Under the pieces are notes generated by a model. It worked only from the letters and a program-made list of their open reading frames with translations, was not told where the DNA came from and did no database searches. From Dolichospermum sp. ST_sed8 (GTDB taxonomy: Bacteria; Cyanobacteriota; Cyanobacteriia; Cyanobacteriales; Nostocaceae), in contig JAKOGY010000021.1 of assembly GCA_028658405.1 (NCBI GenBank), positions 1 through 35,824 on the forward strand: a stretch of 35,824 nt of DNA, read 5' to 3'. Below, piece by piece: positions 1 to 31,473 of the stretch (the stretch's first letter is position 1; each line of letters begins with the position of its first letter). Made by a program: the position numbers and the translations under genes.

Positions 1-101
<101 letters not shown>

Positions 102-26847: not shown

Positions 26848-27358
26848 TTAATTTTGCTGTAATTCTGCATCAATTAACTTTTGAAATTCCTCCAATGAGG
26901 GAACACTAATACTCGACAAAAGTAGATTCTCTAGAATAAGCATATCATCAATTTTTGTGATAGAATTGCTCATCAATTCTGGAACATCATCAAATCTATT
27001 AGCTAGAATTTTGATAATATTGTCTTGGCAGTTTTTTCTAGCTCCTTTGATTTCACCTTTTGCTTCTGCAAATTCTTCAATAGTGCTGAGGAAAGGCATA
27101 TTTAACTCCTTTTCATAAGACCTCGCGGTATGCGGGAAACTCAGTCCCTTTAGGGCTGAGAGGGAAACGACTCAAGCGGTTTTAACCGTCTTGAATATTT
27201 TTTCATACTGTTCTAATTTATCCTTAAACTCTAATTGCAATGGTGGTGTTAACGTCATCATTTTATCAATAAACTTGACTAAATTAATAATGTCAAACTT
27301 AGTTAAGCCTTTTTGATACAATGGTCTGACTAAACTCTATTTCCATTTCTCTCTCTGG
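26848..27358 (-). pseudogene. Interrupted Rpn nuclease gene
   Basis: Two segments align with consecutive parts of the intact paralogue at 27454. Upstream, 27358-27207 reads REKWK, a TAG stop where the paralogue has Trp, then SLVRPLYQKGLTKFDIINLV and FIDKMMTLTPPLQLEF up to EQYEK. Downstream, 27112-26848 continues with ELNMPFLSTIEEFAEAKG and runs to the normal C-terminus (KLIDAELQQN). The 90-bp element 27117-27206 lies exactly between them. Removing it restores an open EQYEKELNMP junction. The N-terminal nuclease core is lost. An 83-residue open frame from 27099 could still be translated, with an AAGGAG site in front. Confidence 0.85.
27117..27206. mobile_element. 90-bp TCAT-bounded mobile mini-element, copy 1
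   Basis: The element sits between two TCAT tetranucleotides (27113-27116 outside, 27203-27206 at its right end) and interrupts an rpn gene. It folds as two hairpins: CTCAG-CCC/GGG-CTGAG with TTTA loop (27140-27160) and CAAG-CGGTT/AACCG-CTTG (27173-27193). It has no coding capacity. Copy 2 at 29989-30078 is the same length, with 13 differences. No target duplication beyond the shared TCAT is visible (a 7-bp TTTTCAT overlap exists), which fits single-strand IS200/IS605-type transposition at a tetranucleotide. Confidence 0.78.
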
Positions 27359-28539: not shown

Positions 28540-29988
28540 TTAATTAATGGTAGGATGCCAGAGTGTACCACCTCCTTTCGTATCAATTAAGTCAAAACCT
28601 TTTGCTTTTATTTCATCACGAATACGGTCAGATTCGGCAAAGTTCTTGGCGTTTCTTGCTTCTTGTCTTTGTTGAATTAGAGCTTCAATTTCTGCATTAC
28701 TTATACCATCCTGTGTAGGAGTTTTTGTTTCTGGTTGGGCGGTTAAACCCAAAACATCTGCTAATGTAATTAATGTTCGCCATTTTTGCTGTAATTCATG
28801 GGCTGGAGTTTCTGTTTTTCCTTGATGTACAATAATATTCCCTTCTCGAATTAGTTCTTTAGCTAATTCAAAAATTACTGTTAACCCACCAGGGAAATTA
28901 AAGTCATCATTAACGGCTTCTTTGAATTTATCAATGTAGCTATGAGAAATTAAATTAGTTTCAGTTCCCAATTGTTGATTATGGTGATAGCCAAAAAGTA
29001 ATCCTTCTTTGATAGTATGCCAGCCATTTGTTGCTGCTAATATAGCATCATCGGTAAAATCTATGGGTTTACGATATTGTGCGATCATCACAAATAATCT
29101 TACCGCCATTGGGTCTACACCCCGATCTAATAATTGGCGAATGGTGATAAAATTACCCAAGGATTTGGACATTTTTTCCCCATCAACTTTTACCATGCCA
29201 TTGTGTAACCAATAATTTGCTAAAGGTTTTCCTGTAACAGCTTCCGATTGGGCAATTTCGTTTTCGTGGTGGGGAAAAATTAAGTCAGCACCACCAGCAT
29301 GAATATCTATAGTATCACCCAAGCGATCGCGCACCATCGCCGAGCATTCAATATGCCATCCGGGGCGACCTTTTCCCCAGGGAGACTCCCACGCAGGTTC
29401 ATCGGGTTTTGCAGCCTTCCACAGGGCAAAATCAAAGGGGTATTTCTTCTTTTGATATTCTGCATCTTCGATATTTACCCGTTCACTTGCGCCGGCTTGC
29501 ATATCCTCTAATTTACGTCCTGAAAGTTTGCCATATCCTGCAAAATTCTGTACTGCATAATACACATCACCATCAGCAGGATAAGCAAATCCTTTATGTT
29601 CTAAATCGTGAATTAATCTTTGAATACCATTCATAGTATGTGTTGCGCGGGGATATTCATCAGCTTCTTTAATTCCCAACCGCGACATATCCTCGAAATA
29701 TGCTTGAATGTAGCGTTCTGCGACTTCTTCCATTGAGGAATTTTCTTCTCTAGCCCGTTTGAGAATTTTATCATCAATATCAGTAAAATTCTGGATATAA
29801 CGCACATCATAGCCAATAAATTGCAGATAAGAACGCACTACATCCCAGACAATGCACGCTCTAGCATGACCCAAATGGCAGTAATCATAAACTGTCACGC
29901 CGCAGTAATACATTTTAACCTTTCCAGGTTCAACGGTGATAAATTCTTCTTGACGACGGCTGAGAGTATTGTAAATAGATAGGGTCAT
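28540..29988 (-). CDS. cysS: Cysteinyl-tRNA synthetase
   Basis: A class I synthetase charging tRNA-Cys, 482 residues, complete. It has the HIGH-type motif HLGH (38-41), KMSKS (272-276), the specificity zinc ligands C29, C215, H240 and E244, and normal blocks such as NFTDIDDKI, PGWHIECSAM and HAGGADLIFPHHENE. The start ATG at 29988 gives the usual MTLSIYNTLSRRQEEF. Odd point: the 90-bp mobile element begins at 29989, the very base before the start codon, so the native leader and ribosome-binding site have been displaced. The sequence just upstream (CGCGATGTCTT on the mRNA) shows no Shine-Dalgarno motif. Confidence 0.97.
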   Translation of the reverse strand: MTLSIYNTLSRRQEEFITVEPGKVKMYYCGVTVYDYCHLGHARACIVWDVVRSYLQFIGYDVRYIQNFTDIDDKILKRAREENSSMEEVAERYIQAYFEDMSRLGIKEADEYPRATHTMNGIQRLIHDLEHKGFAYPADGDVYYAVQNFAGYGKLSGRKLEDMQAGASERVNIEDAEYQKKKYPFDFALWKAAKPDEPAWESPWGKGRPGWHIECSAMVRDRLGDTIDIHAGGADLIFPHHENEIAQSEAVTGKPLANYWLHNGMVKVDGEKMSKSLGNFITIRQLLDRGVDPMAVRLFVMIAQYRKPIDFTDDAILAATNGWHTIKEGLLFGYHHNQQLGTETNLISHSYIDKFKEAVNDDFNFPGGLTVIFELAKELIREGNIIVHQGKTETPAHELQQKWRTLITLADVLGLTAQPETKTPTQDGISNAEIEALIQQRQEARNAKNFAESDRIRDEIKAKGFDLIDTKGGGTLWHPTIN

Positions 29989-30078
29989 AAGACATCGCGG
30001 TAAGTGGGAAACTCAGTGTCTTTAGACCTGAGAGGGAAACGACTCGCGCGGTTTTAAGCGCATTGAATCTTTTTTCAT
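29989..30078. mobile_element. 90-bp TCAT-bounded mobile mini-element, copy 2
   Basis: Same length and about 86% identity to copy 1 at 27117-27206. The left TCAT (29985-29988) contains the complement of the cysS start codon; the right end is TTTTTTCAT at 30078. The first hairpin has GTC/GAC (30018-30020, 30025-30027) where copy 1 has CCC/GGG, i.e. two compensated base pairs. The second hairpin is re-paired as GCGC/GCGC. It directly precedes the structured RNA at 30089. Confidence 0.75.
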
Positions 30079-30088
30079 TACCGCCTTG

Positions 30089-30431
30089 GAGTTGAAAAAT
30101 TCGGGGTACTGTTGTGATGTACTTTCAACGGGACAGTTACCGATTCAAATTTCTCAACTCTGTACGCATAATGTTTTGCTCGAAAGAGCCTCCCATTTCT
30201 GGGGTAATGTTAGCAACGACTGAGTTATAAGAGCTTGTTAGACTTGCAACACTGTTCCTGTTACCTGAGAACTGTTTAATCGCAAGCGACAGAGCAGGGA
30301 ACTAGCTTCGCATTCCGGGGTGTCGTGACTCAAATAACGGCTACCCTTTGACTATGCTCAGGGTGGTCTGGTCAGTACAGCTTGTTTGATTTCTCTTACA
30401 AGCTCAGTCCCTTTAGGGCTGGGTTACTGAC
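30089..30431 (+). ncRNA. HEARO / IscB omega-RNA-like structured RNA, no adjacent iscB
   Basis: No coding frame is plausible, but pairing is dense. Stems seen: GAGTTGA/TCAACTC (30089-30095, 30154-30160) enclosing GGTACTGT/ACAGTTACC (30105-30112, 30133-30141); GCTC-GAAA-GAGC (30178-30189); CCCA-TTTC-TGGG (30192-30203); GGAA...TTCC core (30298-30316); an 8-bp stem 30339-30346/30361-30368; and a 3' three-way junction closed by GTCAGTA/TACTGAC (30371-30377, 30425-30431) holding AGCTTGT/ACAAGCT and CAG-CCC/GGG-CTG. A GAAA hairpin directly followed by a second short hairpin, then a GGAAC..GC core, is the order I remember for IscB omega-RNA. In that class the guide lies just 5' of the first stem, here about 30070-30088. 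Identity is inference; structure is seen. Confidence 0.6.
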
Positions 30432-30512
30432 AACAGAGTAATGCGGGAATCTGACGATAAACAATGATAACGCAAGTTGATGACAATGGCGTAAGTGAAT
30501 ATTTTAGTAGCT

Positions 30513-30532
30513 AATAATTGGCTATAATTATT
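30513..30532 (+). promoter_or_regulatory. Possible promoter -10 within a small inverted repeat
   Basis: TATAAT at 30523-30528 overlaps the inverted repeat AATAATT/AATTATT. It lies 35 bp before the uma2 start. No convincing -35 box is seen at 17 bp upstream. The paralogous uma2 at 32763 also has CTATAAT (about 32728) in the same relative place. Confidence 0.4.
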
Positions 30533-30562
30533 GTTATTAACACTAACAGATAGAGGTAAAGT

Positions 30563-31180
30563 ATGATTCAAACATTACCGAAGACTAAATCAGTAACTTT
30601 TGAAGAATTTGTGCAATGGAAGCCAGAGGGAAAGTATTATGAATTACATAATGGAGTAATTATTGAAATAAATCAACCTTTAGGAGATCATGAAGATATT
30701 AGTAGTTTTTTGGCTGAGATAGCTACGGCGGAATATCTGCGCTTAAATTTACCCTACCGTATTCCTAAAACGGTTTTAGTAAAACAATCTGAAAGTGAAT
30801 CAGCTTACTCACCAGATGTCTTGATACTAAATCGTTCTAATTTAATCAATGAGCCATTATGGAAAAAACAAGCTACAGTTACTCAAGCAGCATCAATTCC
30901 CTTAGTGATTGAAGTTGTTAGTAGCAATTGGCGTGTTGATTATTTGACAAAAGTTAAAGACTATGAAGAAATTGGATTCGGTGAATATTGGATTGTTGAT
31001 TATTTAGCTTTGGGTGGAACTCCCTATATAGGAAATCCTAAACAACCAACTATTTCTATTTATGATTTAATCAATGGGGAATATCAAGTTAGACAATTTC
31101 GAGCAAATGAAACTATAGTATCACCAACTTTTCCAGAATTGACCTTAACTGCTAACCAAATTTTTCAAGCTGGTATGTAA
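30563..31180 (+). CDS. Uma2 family (DUF820) nuclease-fold protein
   Basis: A 205-residue Uma2 protein: TFEEFVQW, YYELHNGVIIEI, AYSPDVLIL (acidic Asp), IPLVIEVVSSNWRVDYLTK (Glu, Lys), EYWIVDYLALGG, and a terminal FPELTLTANQIFQAG. It is a full-length minimal family member. AGAGGTAAAG precedes the ATG. It is a close paralogue of the gene at 32763, which has the same ends and length; the two flank the CobW gene. The function of Uma2 proteins is unproven. Confidence 0.88.
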   Translation: MIQTLPKTKSVTFEEFVQWKPEGKYYELHNGVIIEINQPLGDHEDISSFLAEIATAEYLRLNLPYRIPKTVLVKQSESESAYSPDVLILNRSNLINEPLWKKQATVTQAASIPLVIEVVSSNWRVDYLTKVKDYEEIGFGEYWIVDYLALGGTPYIGNPKQPTISIYDLINGEYQVRQFRANETIVSPTFPELTLTANQIFQAGM

Positions 31181-31231
31181 ATATGTTACTGTCATAGGGA
31201 ACAGGGAATAGGCAACAGGGAACAGGAAAAA

Positions 31232-31251
31232 CTCATGTTTAAAAACATGAG
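31232..31251. terminator. CTCATGTTT hairpin after uma2
   Basis: A perfect 9-bp stem CTCATGTTT/AAACATGAG with an AA loop, 50 nt after the uma2 stop. It is a candidate terminator or a small dispersed palindrome; no U-tract follows. Confidence 0.45.
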
Positions 31252-31346
31252 ATTGAAATAATGACACTGTTTTTTTCGTGCTACGCATTTTGTAAAAATA
31301 TCTTTTTTTTGACTGAGCTTTAAACTCAAAACTAAAGTTTCTTATC

Positions 31347-31410
31347 TGTTCCCTGTTCCCTGTTCCCTGTTCCCTATTCCCTGTTCCCTATTCCCTGTTC
31401 CCTGTTCCCT
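31347..31410. repeat. TTCCCTG/TTCCCTA heptamer array with inverted partner upstream
   Basis: Nine tandem heptamers (TGTTCCC or TATTCCC) at 31347-31410. The reverse-complement array (AGGGAACAGGGAATAGG...CAGGGAACAGG) is at about 31196-31226, so the two can pair into a long stem over the whole uma2-cobW spacer. No gene lies in this 293-bp spacer. Confidence 0.8.
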
Positions 31411-31473
31411 TCTTCTGTCATGTCGAGTGACCAAAATCAAGATAAAATTTAAAATAGACCAAAATCCTCCGTT

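Follow-up and report, generated by a model that had tools for sequence, protein, structure and literature searches.

A stand-alone IscB-type omega-RNA at one edge of a 443-bp non-autonomous element inserted at the cysS start codon of Dolichospermum sp. ST_sed8

The window, by which we mean the whole stretch of 35,824 nucleotides that was analysed, is one contig of a 5.78-Mb draft genome of 532 contigs. It contains a 443-bp mobile element, inserted at the start codon of cysS, one edge of which is formed by an omega-RNA on the minus strand; the opposite edge abuts ATGA. The ends of the element are exact and recur in other elements, its predicted guide and the adjoining motif are present in an empty site of a relative, and an intact iscB lies elsewhere in the source genome. 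We interpret it, with a probability of about 0.7, as a guide-only, MITE-like element of the IS200/IS605 superfamily that has kept the omega-RNA of IscB, has no iscB and uses IscB in trans. The original prediction of a nuclease-less omega-RNA in this region is partly supported; it did not foresee that the RNA belongs to a precisely bounded 443-bp mobile element with dozens of copies, here inserted at the cysS start codon. The features are:

28540-29988, minus strand: cysS, cysteine--tRNA ligase, with its start codon at the element edge (TIGR00435, 572 bits).
29985-29988, minus strand: ATGA, which holds the cysS start codon and is the predicted target-adjacent motif; the plus-strand TCAT is the presumed transposase target.
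29989-30431, minus strand: whole non-autonomous element, 443 bp, with ends common to other copies and an exact empty site in L060.
29989-30061, minus strand: element end common to IscB, IsrB and tnpA/tnpB elements, from the comparison of copies.
30012-30032, no strand assigned: subterminal hairpin on the ATGA side, from the sequence and repeat families.
30089-30160, no strand assigned: long imperfect palindrome between the RNA and the shared end (inverted repeat I1; segment in other copies).
30204-30431, minus strand: HEARO/IscB omega-RNA scaffold (RF02033, 129 bits, full model; compensatory changes).
30405-30421, no strand assigned: subterminal hairpin on the RNA side, within the first RNA stem, from the sequence; also in tnpA/tnpB elements.
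30432-30447, minus strand: predicted 16-nt guide in the host flank (cysS 5' leader), identical and adjoining ATGA in empty site L060.
30563-31180, plus strand: Uma2-family gene (PF05685), divergent neighbour.

To identify the RNA, the window was subjected to an Rfam covariance search. HEARO (RF02033), the omega-RNA family of IscB and IsrB, matched at 30431-30204 on the minus strand with 129 bits (gathering score 83) and an E value of 1.1e-26, covering positions 1-211 of the 211-position model and bearing out the family assignment of the original prediction. Above gathering scores, the whole window yielded two Rfam matches, HEARO and an incomplete 16S rRNA gene, within which the contig starts (positions 1-101, minus strand). 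Two snoRNA models at 29500-31000 (E values of 2.9 and 5.5) were dismissed as chance matches. Folding confirmed a structured non-coding stretch at 30060-30470: the minus strand gave a z score of -3.76, with none of 100 shuffles equally stable, and the plus strand one of -2.45, with two of 100. The unit had been drawn at 30063-30470; structure is indeed present there, but the element itself extends from 29989 to 30431. The GAAA-capped hairpin and the hairpin next to it, both predicted, occur in the plus-strand fold (30178-30189 and 30192-30203) and lie outside the HEARO match, 3' of it on the minus strand.

When 34 RNAs were aligned, 27 of the 44 predicted pairs displayed one or more compensatory double changes, and the stems are therefore conserved in homologous copies, as the original prediction required; the 34 were drawn from about 96 copies of four genomes and from some copies in further genomes, include RNAs linked to IscB or from other genera, among which the stand-alone copies are not isolated, and leave out L110 and L112. 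A scan for consensus promoters on the minus strand upstream of the omega-RNA returned no site. No nuclease gene adjoins the RNA, as had been claimed, but the place where a linked iscB would be expected is 30203-29989 rather than the 30432-30562 originally considered, and no iscB was found there either.

Copies in the source genome begin with GTCAGTAAC or a near form at the 5' edge of the omega-RNA, and at their far end a CTCAG...CTGAG hairpin is followed about 24 bases further by ATGA. The palindrome at 30089-30160 is present in many copies, but not in all. Thirty plasmid records match the query 29600-31000; among the matches listed, one falls in the element (Dolichospermum sp. UHCC 0315A, 92.4% over about 447 bp) and the other 19 fall in the flanking genes. 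Elsewhere in the window, a 90-bp solo end of the element's family, flanked by CAGT and ATGA, is located at 27117-27206 (minus strand). Its flank, TAAATTAGAACAGT, carries a 614-bp copy with omega-RNA in G011 (L140), and the solo end looks like the product of an internal excision or deletion that again left flank and ATGA. Runs of short GGGAACA/CCCTGTT-like repeats occupy 31195-31420, in the gap that separates the Uma2 gene from the one after it.

The insertion site was compared across genomes. The cysS start, at which residue 3 aligns to position 1 of the TIGR00435 model, was recovered with its surroundings in 38 of 41 genomes (source genome included); the element end is absent from the 110 bases upstream of cysS in all 29 other loci, and the element is missing at cysS in all 15 same-genus genomes. 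The exact empty site among these, L060 of G011, has a flank identical to that of the window, with CCCGCATTACTCTGTT directly joined to ATGACC. Sister-genome empty sites, put forward earlier as a check, are at hand, and since both flanks abut letter for letter in L060, insertion was precise and without target duplication. The tetranucleotide target of IS200/IS605 elements sits where TCAT, the reverse complement of ATGA, stands. In terms of sequence position, L060 has the flank of the RNA 5' end on one side of the empty site and ATGA on the opposite one. The remaining 14 same-genus empty sites show two to six mismatches to the 16-nt guide, leaving L060 as the only perfect target; the source genome contains no empty copy of guide plus ATGA, and at two mismatches only the insertion junction was retrieved. 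The predicted guide length was taken from PMC9640706, excerpts of which place the guide of IscB RNAs at the 5' end with about 16-17 nt and state that mismatches at the 14 motif-nearest positions abolished IscB cleavage. Excerpts of PMC9581776 give the motif as NTGA for one IsrB and as NTG for a Dolichospermum IsrB, with which the ATGA beside the element agrees.

The end next to ATGA links the element to a transposase. Its 73-bp sequence directly follows the tnpA stop codon at five loci of G011, G009 and G004, where it precedes ATGA (L187, L180) or ATAA (L174, L191, L195). The tnpA of these elements encodes a 133-aa IS200/IS605 transposase; a divergent frame is also present, which in L191 and L195 is TnpB (Pfam PF01385), and the opposite end of L180, L187, L191 and L195 bears a hairpin of the same kind as the RNA edge. 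The window element's end is also carried by the IsrB-like frames without HNH (L035, L036, L038). Since this end is common to IscB, IsrB and tnpA/tnpB elements, the window element is a non-autonomous member of the IS200/IS605 superfamily. The comparison of the three nuclease types covered L035, L036, L038 and L258 together with the five tnpA loci; IscB, IsrB and TnpB elements seem to share one transposition site, which would be ATGA for one and TCAT for the other. In the draft of the source genome, a tnpA with this end was found only as the truncated L046, with a 65% identical relative in L041. Of the 70 ends counted, 69 precede ATGA and one GTGA under an end pattern that admitted ATGA, ATAA, GTGA and GTAA only; six of 40 further ends precede ATAA.

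The source genome contains 43 HEARO matches, 31 of them above the cut-off, and nine RRXRR matches (eight above the cut-off), which by coordinates adjoin nine of the 43 and mark an IscB/IsrB gene or its remnant there. Among the 34 HEARO matches without an adjoining RRXRR, seven have no more than 335 bases left from the RNA start to the end of the contig; the other 27 have no RRXRR beside them, one (L054) being accompanied by a C-terminal piece of iscB recognised by eye. The IscB of L001 is intact and 427 aa long (NF040563, guided_IscB, 456 bits), and L034 holds an open, diverged IscB frame; L016 has by comparison lost part of the HNH stretch, the frame of L002 is interrupted by a stop codon and L010 is a remnant. 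HEARO matches occur in 34 of the 41 genomes, source genome included. A tree of 80 RNAs groups the stand-alone copies into clades of multiple members, with a few IscB-linked RNAs interspersed, a pattern suggesting that the stand-alone copies spread as non-autonomous elements. The nearest neighbours of the window RNA are stand-alone; the nearest IscB-linked RNAs belong to a truncated IscB (L139, G011) and a G009 IscB (L158), not to the intact L001, whose RNA is only 80% identical to that of the window. A short element type with the shared end and a different conserved upstream segment was also encountered (L255, L259, L262, L275-L278, L280), in which BLAST revealed no HEARO match.

In the guide-only reading that we favour, a Y1 transposase provided in trans would recognise the hairpin ends and insert the element beside TCAT, which the RNA strand shows as ATGA. 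The 16 flanking nt adjoining the RNA would serve as the guide, and each copy would be aimed at its own empty site with ATGA as the motif. An IscB (or IsrB) from elsewhere in the genome would bind the RNA and cut or nick insertion-free chromosome copies, whose repair with the inserted copy as template would keep or spread the element. Many cyanobacteria are polyploid, and polyploidy would supply targets after each insertion. Action in trans with an IscB elsewhere had already been proposed: the source genome does hold the intact L001 IscB, as well as the IsrB-like L035, L036 and L038, and, judged from the sequence, a partnership of the omega-RNA with IscB in trans is most likely. We infer this use in trans along with transcription of the RNA, its loading, cutting, copy-back and present mobility.

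The position of the element at a start codon is not peculiar to cysS. The 96 copies checked for the end comprised 43 from the source genome and 53 from G011, G009 and G004, the latter being those among the matches listed for these three genomes and favouring high-scoring copies. No end was detected by pattern in 22, including L009, whose end was located by eye at an ATGA ahead of a 372-aa frame; a false pattern match (L034) and a locus with two ends in tandem (L020) were dropped by hand, and L125 and L131 were dropped since their flank was already counted. Of the 70 insertions left, 32 are at a gene start, 26 are intergenic and 12 are within genes; per genome, starts account for 7 of 23 (source), 15 of 28 (G011), 7 of 11 (G009) and 3 of 8 (G004). 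The background of 3207 ATGA sites, taken from 400 kb of G011 with a simple custom gene caller, divides into 187 at starts, 701 intergenic and 2319 within genes. Outside gene bodies, starts thus take 32 of 58 insertions versus 187 of 888 background sites (Fisher 5e-8), which rules out that the bias is due only to the sparing of genes. NCBIfam, against which 20 of the start frames were run, gave no family at E 1e-10 for 10 of them; HemA and NDH subunit 4 align with residue 1 on model position 1, CtpB with residue 9 on position 2 and AroB with residue 14 on position 1, a response regulator and a glycosyltransferase also align from near residue 1, and the rest are partial or weak.

Selection for RNA expression as the source of the bias is unsupported: starts were hit by 9 of 21 elements without omega-RNA versus 38 of 74 with it (p 0.62; six of 40 ends before ATAA excluded), L284 and L288 having been assigned to the 74 by eye (10 of 23 versus 37 of 72, p 0.63, if moved). 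Because elements without omega-RNA show a similar rate, the bias seems to be a property of the shared end. A ribosome site within the end was likewise rejected as its cause, starts accounting for 13 of 21 ends with a GAGG or AAGG nearby versus 19 of 40 without (p 0.42). Long copies lie at starts in none of nine cases versus 32 of 61 short ones (p 0.003), or in none of eight (p 0.006) when the misassigned L145 (distant end, no nuclease frame) is removed; avoidance of starts by long copies is not relied on, given that two further loci sit at starts: L258, which on visual inspection has the end of an IsrB-type gene, and L269, where part of the RNA is matched a long way upstream. The bias may stem from target choice by the transposase or from better survival of insertions that spare the reading frame.

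The similar start rate with and without RNA also speaks for the chief alternative, namely that the element is a decayed remnant whose RNA is an inactive fossil and whose copies spread only as transposase-mobilised MITEs. Same-end elements without RNA are abundant too, and the source genome has, among those found, no intact transposase with this end. Against this, compensatory changes keep the stems, in the mixed alignment of IscB-linked and other-genus RNAs, and the RNA is full length in many copies, with 31 of 43 above the Rfam cut-off; we regard the remnant explanation as rather unlikely. It is quite improbable that the element is a mobile 5' leader of cysS, providing a promoter, a ribosome site or regulation, with the RNA recruited as a riboregulator. 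Such a role would suit the 32 of 70 insertions exactly at start codons and the GAGG found four bases ahead of ATG in some ends, but GAGG/AAGG is not associated with starts, the window copy has GATG, and cysS goes without the element in 15 of 15 congeners. The original reading, in which the functional RNA comes from the plus strand and takes its guide from the 16 nt before 30089, is practically untenable and largely refuted. The plus strand also folds stably, but each of the three Rfam matches at 29500-31000 (E up to 10) is on the minus strand, and the 16 nt before 30089 are internal to the element, the predicted guide being the flank at 30432-30447.

An extension of the guide-only reading, which we find possible but somewhat doubtful, is that one or a few IscB serve dozens of nuclease-less guide elements per cell, as a genome-wide, transposon-written guide library at gene starts that propagates itself to every chromosome copy. 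Around half of the short copies lie immediately ahead of a host start codon, within the 5' leader; there the guide would be transcribed from the promoter of the host gene, with the start codon as target motif, and the gene starts aimed at would include cysS, hemA, aroB, NDH subunit 4 and ctpB. If the RNAs act in trans, they constitute a natural experiment in which numerous scattered guides program a relative of the Cas9 ancestor; the target of each guide is known, and sister strains provide the empty sites. The uncoupling of guide RNAs from the nuclease gene, a step also needed toward CRISPR, would become testable. The landing on gene start codons is the aspect that deserves follow-up; it shows a way for such elements to enter housekeeping loci while leaving the reading frame intact.

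Stand-alone omega-RNAs are of a kind already known, and the window element is a further member. It resembles HEARO (RF02033) in its full covariance match, the 5' guide outside the element and ATGA at the far side, and differs in having no nuclease gene. The HEARO family includes copies without an ORF; Weinberg 2009 reportedly described such HEAROs, with ATGA/GTGA sites, and Altae-Tran 2021 is said to have reported stand-alone omega-RNA loci with IscB. The latter are reported to be alike in being copies without iscB in an iscB-bearing genome, whereas for the window family ends, empty sites and start-codon sites are resolved. Non-autonomous IS200/IS605 MITEs and PATEs are similarly short, with hairpin ends, no transposase gene, a tetranucleotide at one end and no target duplication seen; unlike them, the window element carries a conserved guide-RNA scaffold. 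In excerpts of the respective papers, HEARO RNAs are tied to the 5' regions of nuclease genes (PMC9755519) and a HEARO RNA is used without its protein (PMC12286853). Among the open-licence papers listed on IscB/HEARO sites and cyanobacterial IS200 MITEs, none was a report of start-codon insertion. The TnpB of IS200/IS605 elements is described (PMC11870625) as a gene drive on multi-copy plasmids; the element proposed here would share with it the flank-derived guide and the cutting of insertion-free copies, and would differ in that the nuclease would be IscB and would act in trans.
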